A stretch of DNA of 64,000 bases from a virus: the IMG/VR virus record IMGVR_UViG_3300021963_000029, positions 1 through 64,000 of that record. One strand, 5' to 3'. Below, in pieces: positions 1 to 58,000 of this stretch. Both the position numbers and the translations under genes were made by a program. How positions within the stretch are numbered: position 1 is the first letter of the stretch; each line of letters begins with the position of its first letter. The notes below the pieces were generated by a model. The model was not told where the DNA came from and searched no databases. It was given only the letters and a program-made list of their open reading frames with translations.

Positions 1-87
1 TCCCAGAACCAGTATTGTTTTAGTGGCATAAACGAGTGAGATAGTGCCAGGTGAATTAATACTATCTGCTGTTCCCCAAAGAGCCAT
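1..87 (-). CDS. Virion structural protein, N-terminal fragment (runs off window)
   Basis: Only the first 29 codons lie in the window. The reading frame opens with MALWGTADSINSPG and stays open to position 1. A purine-rich stretch (AAGGTAAGG) sits just before the ATG, and a TATAAATA late-promoter octamer lies 36 bases upstream, directly after the terminator of the preceding gene. The MALWG start resembles the beginning of structural proteins I know from T4-like cyanophages, but with so little sequence the function cannot be assigned. Late expression is inferred from the promoter. Confidence 0.65.
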   Translation of the reverse strand, partial: MALWGTADSINSPGTISLVYATKTILVLG

Positions 88-122
88 GTGCCTTACCTTG
101 AATAAAATTTCTTTTCTTATGT

Positions 123-130
123 TATTTATA
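123..130 (-). promoter_or_regulatory. T4-type late promoter TATAAATA
   Basis: Exact TATAAATA on the minus strand, 36 bases before the ATG at 87. It overlaps the U-tract of the terminator at 127-160, so termination of one unit and late initiation of the next share bases. Confidence 0.6.
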
Positions 131-160
131 AAAATGGGAGACCTATGGAGAGGTCTCCCA
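127..160 (-). terminator. Rho-independent terminator
   Basis: A perfect 9-bp stem (TGGGAGACC pairing with GGTCTCCCA, loop of 8) spans 135-160. On the minus strand it is followed by TTTTTATAAAT. It lies 23 bases after the stop of the 59-aa gene and ends that transcription unit. Confidence 0.85.
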
Positions 161-182: not shown

Positions 183-362
183 TTATGGAGTTAAATCTTG
201 TGCACCCTTTTTCTTCAGGACTGCTTGTGCCTGAAGAATGACTAGTGAAAGGATACCATTTGATTTTACTTTTGGGTTTGCTCCCATTGCTTCTGATACT
301 GCAAACAGAACAGTTGCAATCAGTGCTTGGTTAGCAACAGCCCATGCGATTAGTGCTGACAT
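183..362 (-). CDS. Small hydrophobic membrane protein, 59 aa
   Basis: The ATG at 360-362 is preceded by AAGAGGTC, a good ribosome-binding site, and the frame closes with TAA at 183-185. The product begins MSALIAWAVANQALIATVLF, which can form one transmembrane segment (about residues 2-22), and ends in a basic tail (VLKKKGAQ). Very similar small proteins occur in cyanophages as far as I recall. Function is unknown. Size and layout would fit a holin-like or other small inner-membrane protein, but nothing in the sequence proves that. A terminator follows directly. Confidence 0.75.
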   Translation of the reverse strand: MSALIAWAVANQALIATVLFAVSEAMGANPKVKSNGILSLVILQAQAVLKKKGAQDLTP

Positions 363-10853: not shown

Positions 10854-11124
10854 TTACATGCTCCAAATAAGATTCTTTTACTTCATCCAGGGGTTCTACA
10901 ATAGAAACTACCCAATCACATGGAATTGGAATTTCTTTCTGCTTGGACAGAGGAACATAAGGATAGTAAGTTACACTGCTACCTTCAACACCATCACCTT
11001 CATTTACTCTGGTGACAAATGGGTTAGCAAGGAGATAACCAATTACTTTATCTCCTGACATCATTTCTTTTACATCAGCAATGACATCCTCATAGGATTT
11101 CAGAACCAAAAGTTTAACAGACAT
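10801..11124 (-). CDS. Small Sm-like paralogue with acidic tail
   Basis: 107 aa. It begins MSVKLLVLKSYEDVIADVKE, continues through YYPYVPLSKQKEIPI and WVVSIVEPLDEVKESYLEH, and ends in a polar acidic tail (DKQSDSDNAD). The strand pattern and the VEP..E...Y ending match the paralogues at 10605, 15659 and 21754. It overlaps the end of the 480-aa gene by 11 bases. Function is unknown. Location in the polymerase unit suggests a role in DNA or RNA metabolism. Confidence 0.75.
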   Translation of the reverse strand: MSVKLLVLKSYEDVIADVKEMMSGDKVIGYLLANPFVTRVNEGDGVEGSSVTYYPYVPLSKQKEIPIPCDWVVSIVEPLDEVKESYLEHVNGQTAGTDKQSDSDNAD

Positions 11125-12556
11125 AATTTTCCAATGTTAATGTTTTATCTTGTAGTTTTAATATGTGATCAGCAAGTTTGTCAATATATCCTTTGTTTCT
11201 AAGTTCTTTAAAAACTAGATTCTCAAAGGCAAACTCACCACCTTTATCTAGGGCAGAATTTCTCATGTCCCTAAGCTTCTTCAGGAGACTTTCCAATGCT
11301 TTTTCATTGTTAGCATAGTTAATAGTCCTGTCAATCTTATTCATCATATCACGAACCTTGGTGTTTAGCAACTCCTCATCTAGGTCTCCAGTAAACTGTT
11401 CTGGTTTAATCAACCATTTGTTTGACTTGAGAGAGAATACACCTTGACTCTTCCTTCTTTTCTTTCCAGGTTCTTCAACATAAGGTTCCACATCATGACC
11501 ATAAACTTTTACCTCATGGGTTAAAGTCCATAGTTGTTTCTTTGCTTGATAATAATCAGAAAGAACATCTGGACAAGATCCATTATTAACAACTAAATGC
11601 AAATCTAGATCAGAATACTTGGTGTAATTATACCCTGCATTTCCACCCAAAAGTAAAATGTCAACAATCTGAGATTTCTTAACATCTACAAAGTCTGCCC
11701 AAGCCTTTGCAACTTTTAATAGATGTGCTCTAACCTCTGGTTTTAATTTTTCTCCATTCCAAAAAGTAGGATTTAATTGATCATGAACTCTAAATGATAT
11801 AGATTCTTCAAGAAAAGTTTTATAACTTTTCATTTTGATACTTTCATCTGTTATTCCTCTTGCCTTTGCAGCAACCGACATTCTTGCTCTCAGTTCTCTT
11901 TGTTTTTGCATTTTTGGAGTCTCTATTCCTTTTTCTCTGGCAAGTCTTTCAGATGCACTTCCTTGTCTCTCAATTTTCCTCTGAATCTCCACTCTATGAA
12001 CATCAGTACCATAATCTTGAAGACTGCCACCTTTACCAACTGGTTTTTGAGAAGAATGATATCCACCTGATCCTCTGTGAGGGACACCCTTTCCACCTTT
12101 GGGTCCATCAGTTTGTGCTAAGTTTCTTGGATCACTACCATGAAATTTACCAAACTTAGCATCTTTTTCTCTTTTTTCTCTTCTTTGTTCTGGAGATAAT
12201 CCCCAAAACTCTTTAGAAGATTGTGAGATTGGAGTTAAGTGGTGATGTTCTTTGCCTCTCCCAACAATAGTATCTCTTTTTTGATCTCCTCTTTTTTTTA
12301 GATTTGGATCTAAATCAGAGTCAACATCTTTAAGTCTAGATGCTCTGTTTATTTGTTGATTAGATCTGGAATCTGCCCTCTTAAGTCCATATCTTTGAAC
12401 CCCATTACTATCCCTACCAATAGTTCCAATTATATAATCACCTGGATTGTCTTTAGCATCAAGACTTTTCTTTACTCTATCCCATCTTGCCTTTTCTTCA
12501 GGACTACCATTCTCAGGGCGATTTACCTCCACAACAAATTCTCTAAAACTTTTCAT
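11114..12556 (-). CDS. Two-part protein: HNH-like region plus nucleotidyltransferase, each with a capsid-targeting-like start
   Basis: 480 aa. Residues 1-10, MKSFREFVVE, resemble the T4 capsid-targeting sequence. Residues 100-170 hold HHHLTPI (104-110), DPRNL (142-146) and PHRGSGGYH (159-167), an arrangement like HNH/EndoVII-fold nucleases of the x-H-H toxin type. A basic helical linker follows. Residues 242-251, MKSYKTFLEE, are a second capsid-targeting-like peptide. A nucleotidyltransferase domain comes next: LGGNAGYN (303-310) and SDLDLH (315-320) form the G-G/S...D-x-D active site of minimal nucleotidyltransferases. The gene sits among early replication genes but has a TATAAATA late promoter 18 bases upstream, with AGG before the ATG. 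It looks like two internal-head proteins fused end to end. Catalysis and packaging are inferred, not shown. Confidence 0.8.
   Translation of the reverse strand: MKSFREFVVEVNRPENGSPEEKARWDRVKKSLDAKDNPGDYIIGTIGRDSNGVQRYGLKRADSRSNQQINRASRLKDVDSDLDPNLKKRGDQKRDTIVGRGKEHHHLTPISQSSKEFWGLSPEQRREKREKDAKFGKFHGSDPRNLAQTDGPKGGKGVPHRGSGGYHSSQKPVGKGGSLQDYGTDVHRVEIQRKIERQGSASERLAREKGIETPKMQKQRELRARMSVAAKARGITDESIKMKSYKTFLEESISFRVHDQLNPTFWNGEKLKPEVRAHLLKVAKAWADFVDVKKSQIVDILLLGGNAGYNYTKYSDLDLHLVVNNGSCPDVLSDYYQAKKQLWTLTHEVKVYGHDVEPYVEEPGKKRRKSQGVFSLKSNKWLIKPEQFTGDLDEELLNTKVRDMMNKIDRTINYANNEKALESLLKKLRDMRNSALDKGGEFAFENLVFKELRNKGYIDKLADHILKLQDKTLTLENYVC
11158..11184 (-). promoter_or_regulatory. Candidate sigma70-type promoter for the gp43 unit
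   Basis: On the minus strand TTGACA (11184-11179) is followed after 15 bases by TATTAA (11163-11158), 34 bases before the 107-aa gene. The -35 is perfect, the -10 matches 4 of 6, and the spacing is short. It lies inside the 480-aa gene. It could give early expression of gp43, uvsX and gp41 independent of the late promoter at 12574. Confidence 0.3.
11804..11833 (-). other. Internal capsid-targeting-like sequence (MKSYKTFLEE)
   Basis: Codons 242-251 of the 480-aa gene encode a second M-K-S-(Y/F)-x-x-F-L-x-E peptide in the middle of the protein, directly before the nucleotidyltransferase domain. The ATG at 11833 has GATGAAAG about 9 bases upstream, a weak possible ribosome-binding site, so an internal start is conceivable. 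Confidence 0.55.
12527..12556 (-). other. Capsid-targeting-like sequence (MKSFREFVVE)
   Basis: The first ten codons of the 480-aa gene match the T4 internal-protein pattern M-K-x-(Y/F)-x-E-F-x-x-E, with gp21-type cleavage expected after the final E. Confidence 0.6.
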
Positions 12557-12573: not shown

Positions 12574-12581
12574 TATTTATA
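12574..12581 (-). promoter_or_regulatory. T4-type late promoter TATAAATA
   Basis: Exact TATAAATA on the minus strand, 18 bases before the ATG at 12556. It merges with the U-tract of the hsp20 terminator (CCCCCTTTTTATAAATA), the same arrangement as at 123-160. Confidence 0.65.
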
Positions 12582-12620
12582 AAAAGGGGGGAAGTGGATG
12601 GTCTTAGTCATCCTTCCCCC
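12578..12620 (-). terminator. Rho-independent terminator after hsp20
   Basis: The stem pairs GGGGGAA with TTCCCCC and GGATG with CATCC, with a 2-base bulge and an 8-base loop (12587-12620). On the minus strand it is followed by TTTTTATAAATA. It lies 25 bases after the hsp20 stop. Confidence 0.85.
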
Positions 12621-12645: not shown

Positions 12646-13080
12646 TTAGAGATAATCCTTTCTAGCATGATGTTCAGGAACAATCTTTCCTAATCGAATG
12701 GTAAGTAATCCATCTTCAAAGATGACTTCTCTAACTTCTGTGTCATCTGAGAGTGTCCATGCTCTTTTGAAACTTCTTTGAGCCAGACCCTTGTGGATAA
12801 ACGTCCTATCCGTTTCTGTATCTTGTTTTTGCCCTTCGACAAAAAGTTTTCCATACTCTGTGAAGACATTTACTTCCTCCTTTTTAAATCCAGCAAGTGC
12901 AATCTCCAAATGAGATTCAACATTATTTACTTGAACAAGGTTGTATGGAGGGTAATTTGTTGTGGTTTCATGAAGATTAAATAACCTATCAAAGTATTCA
13001 TCCATTCCAATACTATTACGTGTGATCTTATCCATCAATGTAGGAAGATCAGACGCAGTGTATCTCATGAGGTTGGTCAT
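12646..13080 (-). CDS. hsp20: Small heat-shock protein Hsp20 (alpha-crystallin family)
   Basis: 144 aa from the ATG at 13080 (MTNLMRYTASDLPTL). It has a clear AAAGGAGC ribosome-binding site, which decides this start over an in-frame ATG 51 bases further up. The alpha-crystallin domain covers about residues 45-135. Recognisable points are IALAGFKKEEV, the GLLTIRL strand and the C-terminal I-x-P anchor (KIVPEHHARKDYL). Hsp20 proteins are ATP-independent holdases, and T4-like cyanophages commonly carry one. It stands alone between the regA terminator and its own terminator, with TATAAT about 60 bases upstream. Confidence 0.95.
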   Translation of the reverse strand: MTNLMRYTASDLPTLMDKITRNSIGMDEYFDRLFNLHETTTNYPPYNLVQVNNVESHLEIALAGFKKEEVNVFTEYGKLFVEGQKQDTETDRTFIHKGLAQRSFKRAWTLSDDTEVREVIFEDGLLTIRLGKIVPEHHARKDYL

Positions 13081-13140
13081 TATGGTAGCTCCTTTAAAAG
13101 CGAGTTTGTGTTTTGTGGACCCTTTTGGCATCCATTACTA

Positions 13141-21157: not shown

Positions 21158-21642
21158 GAAAATCTATAATTAATTCCATCTTTGATATTATTCATGTCAG
21201 ATGAAGTATATCCTAACTCAGAAGTATCTGCAGTAAATACTTCATCAAATCCAGATCTTTCTATGATCTTAGTTTTAATTTCCAACTGCTTCTTCTCTTT
21301 AGCAATCCTTCTTAGGAATGCATAGTAGACAATTTGAGTGAAGTATGCAAAAGGATTGGTCCTTTCCACATCAAAATTGTCAATGTACTGGATGCAATTT
21401 TCAATGCCATCACAAATCATGTCATCCTTAAACATGTAGTTGACAAAGTTTGGTTTGTATGATAAGTGTGTGGCAATCTTTAAGAAGCACTCTCCAAGGT
21501 AATTTGTAATCCTGGGTTTGGGGAGACCTTGCTCTTTAGCAGCAACGACCTTCTTCTTGTACTCAATCAGAGCAAGGTGAAACTCTTTATTGCTTACATA
21601 GTGTTCTGATCTTTTCTTACCTTTGGTCATTACTGGCAACAT
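21154..21642 (-). CDS. 55: gp55 late-transcription sigma factor
   Basis: 162 aa (T4 185). ISOLATED sigma-2-like core: GIENCIQYIDNFDVERTNPF followed by FTQIVYYAFLRRIAKEKKQ, as in gp55, with KRSEHYVSNKEF near the N-terminus. It directs host RNA polymerase to late promoters of the TATAAATA type with gp33 (not in this window) and gp45. An alternative ATG at 21630 would remove four residues. It is the first gene of the unit behind the sigma70-like promoter at 21677-21705. Confidence 0.95.
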   Translation of the reverse strand: MLPVMTKGKKRSEHYVSNKEFHLALIEYKKKVVAAKEQGLPKPRITNYLGECFLKIATHLSYKPNFVNYMFKDDMICDGIENCIQYIDNFDVERTNPFAYFTQIVYYAFLRRIAKEKKQLEIKTKIIERSGFDEVFTADTSELGYTSSDMNNIKDGINYRFS

Positions 21643-23595: not shown

Positions 23596-24027
23596 TTACA
23601 TACCTGCCTGGAATCTCAAAAAGTCAATTGAGTTTTTAATTTGATAACTTCTATTGGAAATCATTTTTAAGATTTCTTCAATATACTTTAATATTGTATC
23701 ATAATAATCAATCTTAAGTAAGACTTTGTTTAATTGCTCATCTGCCTCAAGATATCTTGTAAGACTTTCCTTGTCTCTAATTTTGTATGGAAAAGGTTCT
23801 TCTTTGTAAATGTCAGGATCTGCTTTTCCTGAGTAGTAATTAGATCTTTCTAATTTTTTTACTTTGAAGTTTATTAATGCTTGTTTTCTTAAGAGGGTGA
23901 CATTGTTGTAAATTTCATAATATTTTGAATGTAGTAGTGGAACTTTTAGGGATTCATTATGGAGATCATCTATGTTGATTTCTGAATCCTCTTTCCACAT
24001 CATTTGAATTTCATCAAGAGAAATCAT
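23596..24027 (-). CDS. uvsY: UvsY recombination mediator
   Basis: 143 aa (T4 137). It begins MISLDEIQMMWKEDSEINID, and contains KYYEIYNNVTLLRKQ, YYSGKADPDIYKEEPFPYK and a helical C-terminus with SIDFLRFQAGM. UvsY is a hexamer that loads UvsX onto single-stranded DNA coated by the phage single-strand-binding protein. It overlaps gp3 by ATGA. Confidence 0.96.
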   Translation of the reverse strand: MISLDEIQMMWKEDSEINIDDLHNESLKVPLLHSKYYEIYNNVTLLRKQALINFKVKKLERSNYYSGKADPDIYKEEPFPYKIRDKESLTRYLEADEQLNKVLLKIDYYDTILKYIEEILKMISNRSYQIKNSIDFLRFQAGM

Positions 24028-24590
24028 AAAGGAGTTCCTGTTGCATTAACTATCTTGTAGTAAGTATACTTGAAATTAACCTCTGCAGTAAAATATCTAA
24101 TGTCAGTTTCAGTAGCATCAAATTGCAGAGTTGAAAGATATGTTGGGAACATACCATAATAAATGACTTGAGCACTAACTAAGTAATTGCTGTTTAAGAT
24201 CTGAAGAGTGCCATCAGACTCTTCATAGAATCTACCTTTGTTTAACCCTGGAACAGAGTCTGCACTTGCTTCTACTCTAAGATCATCATACTGCTCTAGA
24301 CTGTATGGAAACCCTAGACCTCTCATCCAGTTTTGAATTTCCATATAATTTTCAAGATTTTCATCTACTAAGAAACGTAGACTAAAATCTTCAAAATTCA
24401 TTTTATCCCCTGGGATGTCAATATTCTTTCCATAACGAGTTTGGATTGCTGATCCTAAAGTAATTGAGGGGATGTTTGCTGAGTTAGCAAAGAAGTCTAC
24501 TTTAGGTGCCTTTTGTAATTTAAATTTGAAACCAACAGGAGATAAAAAGTTTCTATTTCCTGGTTGGTTATCCCAAGGATTTGTTGCCAT
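24024..24590 (-). CDS. 3: gp3-like tail completion / sheath stabiliser protein
   Basis: 188 aa (T4 gp3 176). It begins MATNPWDNQPGNRNFLSPVG, then KFKLQKAPKVDFFANSANIP and LQFDATETDIRYFTAEVNFK. The fold pattern is that of tail-tube-like proteins, related in shape to gp19. In cyanophages a protein with this start lies between gp23 and uvsY and is called gp3, which caps the tail tube. It lies right after the gp23 terminator with no clear ribosome-binding site. AATAAATA is 10 bases upstream. Confidence 0.85.
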   Translation of the reverse strand: MATNPWDNQPGNRNFLSPVGFKFKLQKAPKVDFFANSANIPSITLGSAIQTRYGKNIDIPGDKMNFEDFSLRFLVDENLENYMEIQNWMRGLGFPYSLEQYDDLRVEASADSVPGLNKGRFYEESDGTLQILNSNYLVSAQVIYYGMFPTYLSTLQFDATETDIRYFTAEVNFKYTYYKIVNATGTPL

Positions 24591-24599
24591 TTTTTGAAC

Positions 24600-24607
24600 T
24601 ATTTATT
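24600..24607 (-). promoter_or_regulatory. Late-promoter-like AATAAATA before gp3
   Basis: AATAAATA on the minus strand, one mismatch to TATAAATA, between the gp23 terminator and the gp3 ATG. A start from it would give an almost leaderless message. The following bases (TTCAAAAAATG) are the same as before the 1034-aa gene at 55070. Confidence 0.35.
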
Positions 24608-24611
24608 CCAT

Positions 24612-24640
24612 AAAAAAAAGGACCCCCTGAGGGGTCCTTG
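24612..24640 (-). terminator. Rho-independent terminator after gp23
   Basis: A 7-bp stem (GGACCCC/GGGGTCC, loop of 4) at 24620-24637 is followed on the minus strand by eight Ts. It lies 17 bases after the major capsid protein stop and ends the head gene unit. Confidence 0.92.
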
Positions 24641-24656: not shown

Positions 24657-26081
24657 TCACATGAGGTTGAGAACTTGTACTCTTCTGTAGTATCTGTTGG
24701 TGTTCTGTTGGATTCTTCCAAGACCTTGATCGGTACCTTCTGCAAATGGGTTTGCAACCATACCATATCTGGTCTTGAAGCCAATCTTGGGCTGGAAGGT
24801 GTCCTGACCAACTGCACGTACCATCTGGAGAGGTACATAAGGGCAGTAGAACAGACCAGCATCATAAGGATTGGTTCCTTTGTAACCAACAACATAATAC
24901 TGCTCAGCAGCAAGGTTTGCTGAGAATGGATCAATGTATACCTTGAACTTACCATTGAGAACACCAGCAAAGGTATTGCCAGTATCATCAACATTCAGGT
25001 TAGCATTGAGTGCAGGGGTGTAATCAAGCAGACCTGCCATGGTGAGTGCAGAAGCAACATCAGCAGAGCAGAGGATTACATTACCCTTCCCTCTTCTTGT
25101 TCTTTGAGCGATAGCATTAGCATCTCTCTCAAGTTGGAACAGAAGACCCTTGAACTTCTCAACTGACCATCTACCATTGGAGTCTACATCCAGGTCAAAT
25201 CTACCTGCATTAGCAACATTGGTTTGTGCACCAGCTTCAGCAACCTTATAGATGGTTCTGATGATCTCTCTGTTGATTTCAGCAAGGATTTCAGTTGAGA
25301 GAATGTTTGCTAACTCAGCTTCAGCATCCAGACCATGGATTGCTTTGAGGTCCTGAGCAAGTTCCAGGGTGTACTCAGCCTTGAGTGCTCTTGACTTTGC
25401 AGTAACTGAGAGCTTCTCAATGCTAAATGCCATCTGGTTGAACTGGTTACCAGCTGCATCACCCAGAGCTTCTGCAGCACTAGTACCCATGCCTTGACCA
25501 ACTTTGTAGTCAACACCAAGTGCACCAGCTGAGTTCAGAAGTGCAGGGTTTGAACCAGCTGCATTACCACCAAGGGCAAATCCAGTTGTACCAAAACCTA
25601 CTGATACACCACCATCAGAACCACCAGTGTAATCACCTTGAGTTAGTGATGCACCATCATTCTGAGCAGAGAATGCAGTATCAGGCTCATTGAACAGAGC
25701 TTCTGTGCCAGACTGATTGACATATCTGGTTCTCATTGCAAAGATTAGTCCAGTAGGACCATTCATTGGTTGAACACCAGCAAGATCATATGCAACTAGG
25801 TTAGGCATTGATCTTCTGATCAGTGAGATCAGAACAGGATCAAAACCAGCTACAGGACCAGCAGCAGTTGCTGAACCTGAGAAACCAGGGTTGGATGCTG
25901 ATTGGGTGTTGATGTTAGGAGCAGCCTCAGAAATAAAGGCTCTCTCTTCTCTTAAAAATCTTTCTTGGTTTTCTAGCAGTTGAGCGGTAACTGCTCTTCT
26001 GTAAGGATCCTTGATGTTATCAAGACCCTCTGCTTCCAGAAGAGGTTGCCACTTTTTCTGCAATTGTTCTGAAAGGAACAT
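24657..26081 (-). CDS. 23: gp23 major capsid protein
   Basis: 474 aa (T4 521). It starts MFLSEQLQKKWQPLLEAEGL. The propeptide ends at a gp21-type site I-S-E (50-52) before AAPN. The body contains typical gp23 stretches such as PNLVAYDLAGVQPMNGPTG, KAEYTLELAQDLKAIHGLD and CPYVPLQMVRAVGQDTFQPK. It forms the hexamers of the capsid. It follows gp22 with ACTAAATA 50 bases upstream and is closed by a strong terminator, fitting very high expression. Confidence 0.98.
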   Translation of the reverse strand: MFLSEQLQKKWQPLLEAEGLDNIKDPYRRAVTAQLLENQERFLREERAFISEAAPNINTQSASNPGFSGSATAAGPVAGFDPVLISLIRRSMPNLVAYDLAGVQPMNGPTGLIFAMRTRYVNQSGTEALFNEPDTAFSAQNDGASLTQGDYTGGSDGGVSVGFGTTGFALGGNAAGSNPALLNSAGALGVDYKVGQGMGTSAAEALGDAAGNQFNQMAFSIEKLSVTAKSRALKAEYTLELAQDLKAIHGLDAEAELANILSTEILAEINREIIRTIYKVAEAGAQTNVANAGRFDLDVDSNGRWSVEKFKGLLFQLERDANAIAQRTRRGKGNVILCSADVASALTMAGLLDYTPALNANLNVDDTGNTFAGVLNGKFKVYIDPFSANLAAEQYYVVGYKGTNPYDAGLFYCPYVPLQMVRAVGQDTFQPKIGFKTRYGMVANPFAEGTDQGLGRIQQNTNRYYRRVQVLNLM

Positions 26082-55087: not shown

Positions 55088-58000
55088 ATATGTTAGGGGT
55101 TAGTATTGTCTTCTTAATCACTTTGAAATTAAATGTTCCAGATGATGAGGGGGTAAGGGTTAAAGTATAATTACCAATGCCTGCATTATATACATTTTCA
55201 ATAGTGAATTCATTTAATGGCATGTTACCTGCAAAACCATATGTGGTAAGAGTGTTATAATCATCAAAGTGAACTGCATTTGTTTGGAATAAAGTTCTAT
55301 GTGTAGTCAACCCTACAGTTTTTTCAGCATATACAATATATTTTGATGCTGCAAATACTTGAGGGACTGTAGTTAATCCAACTGAAGAGGAACCAGTATA
55401 ATTGTAATTTTCACTGGTTTGCACACTTCTTTCATTTGAAATGTTATATGGAGCAGTTGGGGTATTTTTTATGAATTGAATATTACTAAAAATAGTAACT
55501 CCTACCCCCAAAACATTTGTGTAGTTGAATTCTATGGCACCAGATGAACTTGTAGTTACTCCAATAGAACCTAATTCTTTAGTTTTGTTTTCTGCATAAA
55601 TGTTAATATCAATGATATTGTCTACATTTTTTACAAAACTAAATTCAAAGGAACTTTCAACTTTATTTTGTGCTGAGGAAATACCAACTAAACCAACACC
55701 AGCATTGCAATCTGCTAATGGATAACTATAAAATGTTGATGTTGAAATTGAAGCAGATGATGCATATCCAATAGTTCTTTCAATTACGTCAACATATCCA
55801 TATGAAGTAGAAGTTATTCCAATAGTGGTAGAAACTGTATCTCTTATTGCTGCTATTGAATAACTATTAAAAATATTTTTTGGAGCAAAATTAATAACTA
55901 TTTCATTTTCATCTGTGGGACTTATAGACCCCTGCACTTCTCCCAATGGTTGTTTGGGAACCCCAGATTCAGTGTAAAAATCATAATAATATGCATATGA
56001 GACCAAATTAATAGTAGGACCAGTTCTAGTTACAAATAAATCAAAAACTTCTGGTTTTTCAAAAAGTCCAAAGAAAGATGTGGTTGCAGCAACAAAGAAA
56101 TAGTATTTAAGTACAACATTATTTGTTGTGTCTACAGTATCAACTGGAACCAAAACAAATGGAGAATTGTCAGTATTAAACAGTCCAGAAATATCATCTA
56201 CAGAAAGAACTCTATTAGCCTCAGATAAGAAGAAGTCTGAAAGTTTTTTAGTTCCAAATTTTAAATATTCAGAGTAAATCCCATCACTTTCATCAATATC
56301 TTCTTCAACAACTAAATCAAAATTAGAAACTGTAGATACATCTTTTTCAGAAATTAAAGATATGTTTACTGCAGATAAAGAATCTGAAGTTACACTAAGA
56401 GTTGAAGCTATTCCTACAGGTAAACTAGATTCAATAGTTAAATCCCCAAATTGCTTATATCCAGATACATGAACTAAGTCTGAAATTATAGGTTTCCATT
56501 CTGATATAGATTTTTTGCTCTTTAAACTATAAGAGAAATTTTGATAGTAATCATTATCTTGAAGTTTTTGTAAAATAGTTGACAAATTACCTCTAAAATC
56601 TTTCCACCCAATATTTTCAGAAAGGCTAGAATCTAACTTTAAAGAAGCTTTAAATTTTTCTATACTAAAAATAGTAGACTCTGATTTGGTAGAAGATCCT
56701 TTGATAGAATCTCCTACAGAAAAACTTGAAGAATTGTGGACTTTAATTAAATCTGTAATTGTTTCATTATTTTCATTATCAATAATTTCACTATTGTATG
56801 GAAGTAAACTTTCATTATTTAAGTATCTTGTTTTCCTTAAAGTTGGTTTAAATTTAGCTAAATCTTCATATCTTACTACAGAAGCATTAAAAGTTGACCC
56901 ACTAATAGTTCCAGGGAATTTTTGGAGTTCATATCTAACAATAGCTGCATCTGGAGAACTATAATTGGGATTAACATATGTTACAATGAATGGTGAAAAA
57001 TCATAGTCAGAACTGTTAAATCCTGAACCTCCTGTGCTAATTATATTTTCTACAAATATTGAACTTCCAACAGATATTGGCAAATCATTTGCTGTAGAAA
57101 AACCAGAAATAGGAGTTTCTAAGGTTAATTCTACTTCATATGGGAAAGAACCAGAAGATGTAGCATTTAAAATTCTAATACCATTGCTGTTATTGGTAGA
57201 AGCTATAAAATCATCAGTAGATTTTAAATTTCCGGAAGAATTAGTAACTAAAACTCTATCAATAGTATTGGCATTAGTTTGTGATATAACAGATGCCTCA
57301 AAATCTAAATCTGTTTGATTTGTAATTTTATTATATAAAACTAATGTTGGTGGAGACTGATATTTTTTTCCAGAATCCAAAATATCAACTTTATCTACTT
57401 GATAGCTATTTTTTGTTCTTAAAGCAACAAAACTATTTGTAACTGGAGATAGTGTTTTGTCACTTGGATAAACACTTTCAGTATTTAAAATTTTGATTGC
57501 TTTTATTTTGCCTATAGTTGTGGTAGTTGCATAAAGATCTGCCCCTACACCAGATTTTGTTGTTATAATTTTTATGCTGGGAACTTTTTTGTAAGAAGAT
57601 CCTCCATAAATTAATTTTACTTTATCAATTGGTCCTTTGATTCCAGAATCTAATACTGAATAATTTAATCTAGATAAAGTATTTGTGTATTGTGATCTTT
57701 CTGGATACACTGGAAGATTATATGTAAATGAAGTTCCTGCTATTCCAGTGACCTTACTTTCAATACTATACAAACTATCATCTAATTTGATTTCATTATT
57801 TCCATCAACAGTAAAATCTGGATAAATTTCATCATTTGTTGTAATATTAGTTAAATTATAGTATAACAGTTTTGGGGTGTATTCTGACACTCTAAAAGTT
57901 AAAGTTGTTGGAGTTTTAAATACTTCTACTCCATTATTTTCATTTCCAAAATAAGGATTTCTAAAGAATTCATCTGCATATAAGTTAAAATCTTTTCCAG

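Follow-up and report, generated by a model that had tools for sequence, protein, structure and literature searches.

Can a transcription terminator and a late promoter be built from the same bases? This question is raised by a site close to the start of a 64,000-nucleotide stretch of viral DNA (hereafter the window), where a hairpin on the minus strand runs directly into the late promoter motif TATAAATA. The window covers the opening 64 kb of a virus record 180,814 bp long. Its first 8 kb matches 327 phage records, mostly from Synechococcus phages, 326 of which align at 60–80% identity, and by these sequence matches the source virus is judged to be a T4-like cyanophage. The "left end" at which an earlier note on this DNA placed the element is only the start of the record, and we rejected it as a genome terminus because window positions 13–138 recur as the final 126 nt of the record. 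The repeated record ends (window 1–138 and record positions 180676–180814) probably reflect a circular or permuted genome whose assembly overlaps itself. Relative to the other copy, the window is one T short near base 12, and the MALWG ORF is therefore frameshifted at the window start. The features of the site are as follows.

183–362, minus strand: upstream ORF of 59 aa, with its stop codon at 185–183, 21 nt 5′ of the hairpin, and a weak match to phrog_3509 (E 5e-4)
161–134, minus strand: terminator-like hairpin ATGGGAGACCT-ctccat-AGGTCTCCCAT, with 11 perfect pairs and a 6-nt loop
130–134, minus strand: T-tract TTTTT, in which T130 is the first base of TATAAATA and position 134 is also paired at the stem base
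133–131, minus strand: TTT, linking the stem base to TATAAATA
123–130, minus strand: T4-type late promoter box TATAAATA, assigned from its sequence and its conservation among relatives
122–118, minus strand: ACATA, directly 3′ of TATAAATA and followed by AGAAAAG from 117
117, minus strand: predicted late transcription start (+1), from placement of the box at −13 to −6 (excerpts of PMC1524935)
91–99, minus strand: Shine–Dalgarno-like AAGGTAAGG, from a reading of the sequence
1–87, minus strand: start of the MALWG ORF, whose intact 295-aa copy lies at record positions 179876–180763 (locus L003, 3877–4764)

The hairpin ends CCCA and continues as TTTTTATAAATA on the minus strand, exactly as previously described. 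Also correct is the claim that the last Ts of the terminator are the first bases of the promoter: there are zero bases between the T-tract and TATAAATA, and T130 belongs to both. The span of 123–160 given for the element locates it properly, but the 5′ base of the hairpin is 161, one position beyond.

Each half of the element has the features expected of its class. The hairpin is G+C rich, lies at the 3′ end of a gene, and has a predicted stability of about −18 to −19 kcal/mol; the segment 165–123 folds at −19.0 kcal/mol (z −4.4), and none of 200 shuffled versions is as stable. A U-tract immediately follows the stem, reading A UUUUU A U past the last G–C pair (six U residues in eight). The TATAAATA box at 130–123 lies shortly upstream of the ATG at 87, and the 35 nt between the end of the box and this codon include the Shine–Dalgarno-like sequence.

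T4 late promoters consist of an 8-bp box with no −35 element and involve the phage proteins gp55 and gp33, whose roles are described in excerpts of PMC2988020, and the late motif NATAAATA has been reported for cyanophage S-PM2 (excerpts of PMC2984593). This phage encodes homologs of both proteins, at record positions 21166–21639 (gp55, 63% identical to that of S-SM2) and 133864–134115 (gp33, 62% identical). Because a T4-type late promoter lacks a −35 element, a terminator could presumably run into it at little cost. The sigma70-type match at the element, only 9 of 12 positions at 194–165, would start transcription inside the hairpin. We rejected such a promoter as part of the element, since sigma70 matches in the first 6 kb are at chance level (17 versus 17.1 expected). 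No Rfam family matches the window at the gathering threshold.

Conservation was examined in 81 regions upstream of MALWG relatives, drawn from 63 IMG/VR loci, 17 isolates (16 fetched from 93 records, plus S-SM2) and the window itself. Judged on their last 95 nt, 58 of these regions are distinct. The motif NATAAATA is present 29–36 nt 5′ of the ATG in 57 of the 58. The sole region without it, B23 (L193), carries CTAAATA in its place, and a similar variant box has been reported for phage Aeh1 (excerpts of PMC1524935).

A hairpin and T-tract abut the late motif in 46 of the 58 distinct regions. Carriers include the cultured phages S-PRM1, with its box at record position 56,257, and S-CAM9. In 43 of these 46, an unbroken T-run of 5–9 (counting the first T of the box) leads into TATAAATA; ACG-2014f and S-CAM7 have two or three other bases between, and in L054 the box starts with C. 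In 33 of the 46, 5 or 6 nt separate the box from the last G or C before it. A strict stem rule that discards stems with more than one G–T pair recovers hairpins in 42 of the 58, and a fold-based rule gives 48, from which S-SKS1 and Bellamy were removed by hand because their folds sit in the upstream ORF and a T-run of 5 is absent. Four regions (L061–L063 and DSL-LC03) have weak hairpins only, with T-runs of 5–7. Seven others, all of which retain the promoter, yielded no abutting hairpin (the L027 group, L053, L064, P-TIM68, S-SM2, S-SKS1, and Bellamy). The terminator half therefore appears, by this sequence comparison, to be dispensable in some phages. Among loci with a callable upstream ORF, the gaps from stop codon to ATG are shortest (34–48 nt) in the phages without a hairpin, with L053 as the one such case that has a long gap (91 nt).

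The 46 hairpins use 22 different outer stems. When arms were swapped between hairpins, pairing fell from 100% to 51%; own arms were chosen by folding and pair by construction, and this result shows only that the stems differ, with shuffling serving as the control for hairpin strength. The upstream genes also differ, as seen from C-terminal peptides such as ...DLTP/DPTP, ...RKETKK, ...KPQEG, ...IKAREE, and ...LLKNC, and the hairpin persists despite these changes. This pattern indicates that the composite travels with the downstream MALWG gene. At L031, L033, L037, L055, L059, and L023, the upstream ORF contributes its final codons to the 5′ arm of the hairpin, and its stop codon lies inside the hairpin.

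The combination of hairpin and late box exceeds chance. Taken singly, TATAAATA is not enriched in the window (8 sites, all on the minus strand, versus 6.8 expected), nor are terminator-like sites in its first 6 kb (5 versus 3.8 ± 1.9 expected). A strict rule, which asks for a perfect stem of at least 7 and then TTTT, running into ATAAATA at a fused site, finds three strong terminators in the window, one of them fused. In 60 dinucleotide shuffles of the window, strong terminators averaged 0.017 and none was fused. We also shuffled 57 of the upstream regions while holding the T-run fixed. A stability of −10 kcal/mol or lower was reached by 46 of the 57 observed regions (with Bellamy but without L065, and so not the curated 46) versus 4.3% of 5,700 shuffles. 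For 33 of the 57, the window among them, none of 100 shuffles was as stable.

A scan of IMG/VR for GGGAGA..TCTCCC with TTTATAAATA no more than 3 nt behind it returned 62 stretches, compared with 7, 5, and 5 for three reordered tails. A MALW- ORF follows in 43 of the 62 (28 distinct), another ORF in 16, and none in 3. Without the MALW- cases there is a modest excess of 19 stretches (13 distinct) over the same 7, 5, and 5. The scan thus mostly shows again the conservation of the single MALWG site.

The reading that we favor, with a probability of about 0.8, is that an intrinsic terminator here insulates a late promoter of the gp55 type, the U-tract of the one overlapping the box of the other. 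This reading starts from the anatomy, its conservation, the differing paired stems, and the gp55 and gp33 genes, and from these we infer termination, initiation, timing, and insulation. Transcription entering from upstream on the minus strand would produce the hairpin; the polymerase would then pause in the U-tract, and its RNA would be released ∼7–8 nt past the stem, within the TATAAATA box. A 3′ end near 127, as predicted in the earlier note, is a reasonable expectation. In the late phase, gp55-bound polymerase, aided by gp33 and the clamp, would recognize the same box and start near 117, giving the MALWG gene a 30-nt leader without the hairpin. From the box placement, the late 5′ end is expected at about 117, one base from the 118 proposed earlier. 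Read-through message would then be absent until the late phase, and the promoter would not be crossed by elongating polymerase. The idea that a single element stops the upstream transcript and starts the late one is borne out as far as layout goes, by the abutting arrangement in 46 of 58 regions, the 22 stems, the near-fixed spacing, and the gp55 and gp33 genes; the stopping and starting themselves are what such a layout would predict.

One alternative is coincidence, in which the AT-rich stretch past a terminator happens to read TATAAATA. The box is not over-represented in the window and nearby terminator-like counts are at the shuffled level, as coincidence would have it. However, the motif recurs in 57 of 58 distinct relatives, whose hairpins use 22 stems, the IMG/VR scan gave 62 versus 7, 5, and 5, and no fused site arose in 60 shuffled windows, all of which makes this explanation extremely improbable. 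Another possibility is that the promoter is real and the hairpin mainly protects or processes the 3′ end of the upstream mRNA, with the overlap reflecting compact packing. Stable 3′ hairpins slow mRNA decay, and here the hairpin closely follows the upstream stop codon, in some loci taking in the last codons and the stop itself. We consider this role unlikely, since the T-run of 5–9 kept in 43 of 46 regions and the tight spacing to the box are as expected for a terminator, and since the element stays with MALWG while the upstream gene end changes.

The hairpin might instead belong to a translational switch, in which read-through RNA hides the ribosome site and late RNA lacks the hairpin, as for T4 gene e and I-TevI. 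Here the late promoter comes after a hairpin and the leader is short (the T4 cases are described in excerpts of PMC3014915 and PMC2988022), and in the minimum-energy fold of 190–60, three bases 5′ of the hairpin pair with bases past the start codon. Yet the hairpin has no pairing partner other than itself, and 34 nt lie between its end and the Shine–Dalgarno-like sequence. The other pairing near that sequence involves bases also present in the late RNA, and in the centroid fold nothing but the hairpin and one small stem downstream is retained. A translational switch is therefore highly improbable. A further variant makes the overlap itself functional, as a self-contained relay switch inherited with MALWG. 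The polymerase released in the U-tract would stay on the late box, where a gp55-bound enzyme would restart; alternatively, a stalled early polymerase would keep the late promoter shut until the late phase. We regard a relay of either kind as decidedly unlikely.

A terminator insulating a late promoter would suit the genes that surround this site. In this genome, MALWG comes after a cytidyltransferase-family ORF and two more ORFs and before a primase-family ORF. The order resembles that in S-SM2, which runs cytidyltransferase, three ORFs, the MALWG relative, three ORFs, gp61, nrdA, and nrdB. The MALWG protein matches phrog_3086 (unknown) and, weakly, phrog_613 (head protein, E 1e-7); at E 0.001, Pfam gave no matches for it or for three other proteins. 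Its relatives are annotated as hypothetical, tail fiber, or tail spike proteins. It is probable that MALWG is a virion gene set amid metabolism and replication genes.

Similar fusions occur elsewhere in this genome. Leaving aside the repeated end, the pattern TTTATAAATA is found six times, always on the minus strand, versus three for the backward pattern. Three of the six (123, 12574, and 174442) come after a strong hairpin. The second of these consists of two parts.

12587–12620, minus strand: hairpin GGGGGAAG...CTTCCCCC
12574–12586, minus strand: CTTTT followed by TATAAATA, between an hsp20-like ORF (12646–13131) and a downstream ORF (11114–12556)

The third, at record position 174442 on the minus strand (L186, 550), follows an ORF end that we take to be a putative nrdB. 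It represents a recurrent second site, present at 15 IMG/VR loci about 6.0–6.7 kb downstream of MALWG. Most proteins encoded after this site share an N-terminal LQEAYxxVY-like motif, and the copy in this genome has no Pfam match.

In 39 dereplicated IMG/VR loci with MALWG masked, 22 of 81 TATAAATA sites are fused, compared with 64 of 6,019 for 55 other orderings of the same letters (Fisher 2e-23); because 15 of the 22 sit at one recurrent position, the sites are not independent and this value overstates the effect. MALWG is upstream of 17 of the 22, and for 15 of those 17 the distance is 6.0–6.7 kb and the N-termini that follow are similar. In the window, the corresponding counts are 2 of 8 versus 6 of 602 (P 0.004), with the MALWG site as one of the two. 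For T4, 3 of 27 sites are fused versus 20 of 1,144 in the 97 of 169 kb examined (P 0.014). S-PRM1 has 1 of 10 versus 10 of 558 (P 0.18), its sole fused site being that of MALWG, and S-SM2 has 0 of 8 versus 7 of 665. The strict rule yields 8 strong terminators in the T4 pieces and 5 in S-SM2, with no fusion among them. Fusion as a genome-wide rule is not supported, given the counts for S-SM2 and S-PRM1.

Several related arrangements were seen in passing. At 24600–24640 on the minus strand of the window, between the major head protein gene (24657–26081) and a tail-tube-family ORF (24024–24590), a hairpin and eight Ts are followed by ATGG and then AATAAATA, a spaced and non-overlapping version of the layout. 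At L083, L151, L156, L176, L231, L234, and L235, the same fused element precedes small proteins beginning MAIFGTID, MTLYSRAE, or MS/PLYGRTDSN, with leaders of 32–36 nt; these are possibly a small virion protein family that shares a start signal. The N-termini MKSFREF, MKRFLEF, and MKSFSQF (window ORFs 11114–12556 and 1348–2454, and L016 17542) resemble MKTFKEF, the start of the T4 internal virion protein IpI, and the proteins that carry them may be packaged head proteins.

If our reading is correct, promoters with only a −10-like box can overlap terminators, and a late gene can be insulated among other genes within ∼40 bp. The MALWG site also provides a natural series of strong, weak, and absent hairpins for asking whether insulation matters, and the element could help to mark late genes when uncultured cyanophages are annotated.

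An overlap between a terminator and a late promoter is not described in the available portions of PMC3037559, PMC1524935, PMC7029224, PMC2988022, PMC3121705, and PMC5349666, nor in those of PMC2984593, PMC2988020, PMC2988021, PMC3014915, PMC4177764, PMC2993671, and PMC4503421. Prior mention is possible, for example in papers on promoter-early stem-loops or in a T4 genome review. We found no literature on transcription start sites of Syn9.

In T4 itself, the three fused sites, detected under a looser rule in the 97 of 169 kb, belong to genes 9, 36, and alt. Like the MALWG element, each has a hairpin and a T-rich tract immediately before TATAAATA. They differ in that other genes lie downstream, a C breaks the T-tract at genes 9 and 36, and none passes the strict rule. 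The gene before the element is non-virion at alt, as it is at window position 12574, whereas genes 9 and 36 follow late genes, and so a logic of "other block, then late gene" is not universal. T4 gene e and I-TevI share with MALWG a late promoter placed so that the late RNA lacks the upstream hairpin. In those genes the hairpins sequester the ribosome site (excerpts of PMC3014915 and PMC2988022), whereas the MALWG-element hairpin does not reach it.

A further comparison is with the promoter-early stem-loop (PeSL) cassettes of T4-like phages, described by Arbiol in 2010 and Comeau in 2014, which reportedly join a terminator stem-loop to an early sigma70-type promoter. These cassettes are also said to act as recombination sites in hyperplastic regions. 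Both they and the MALWG element are small intergenic units in which a terminator stem-loop is combined with a promoter that restarts transcription, a likeness that for our stem-loop is one of structure only. The MALWG element shows no early sigma70-type promoter beyond a chance-level match; its promoter half is instead a late box of the gp55 type, which has bases in common with the T-tract. A second difference from PeSL cassettes is that the element recurs at a single gene position. The varying upstream gene ends hint at a PeSL-like role in recombination, an observation that is suggestive only. Taken together, the MALWG element looks like a late-promoter variant of a PeSL-like cassette and, as such, a compact form of a known phage switch.
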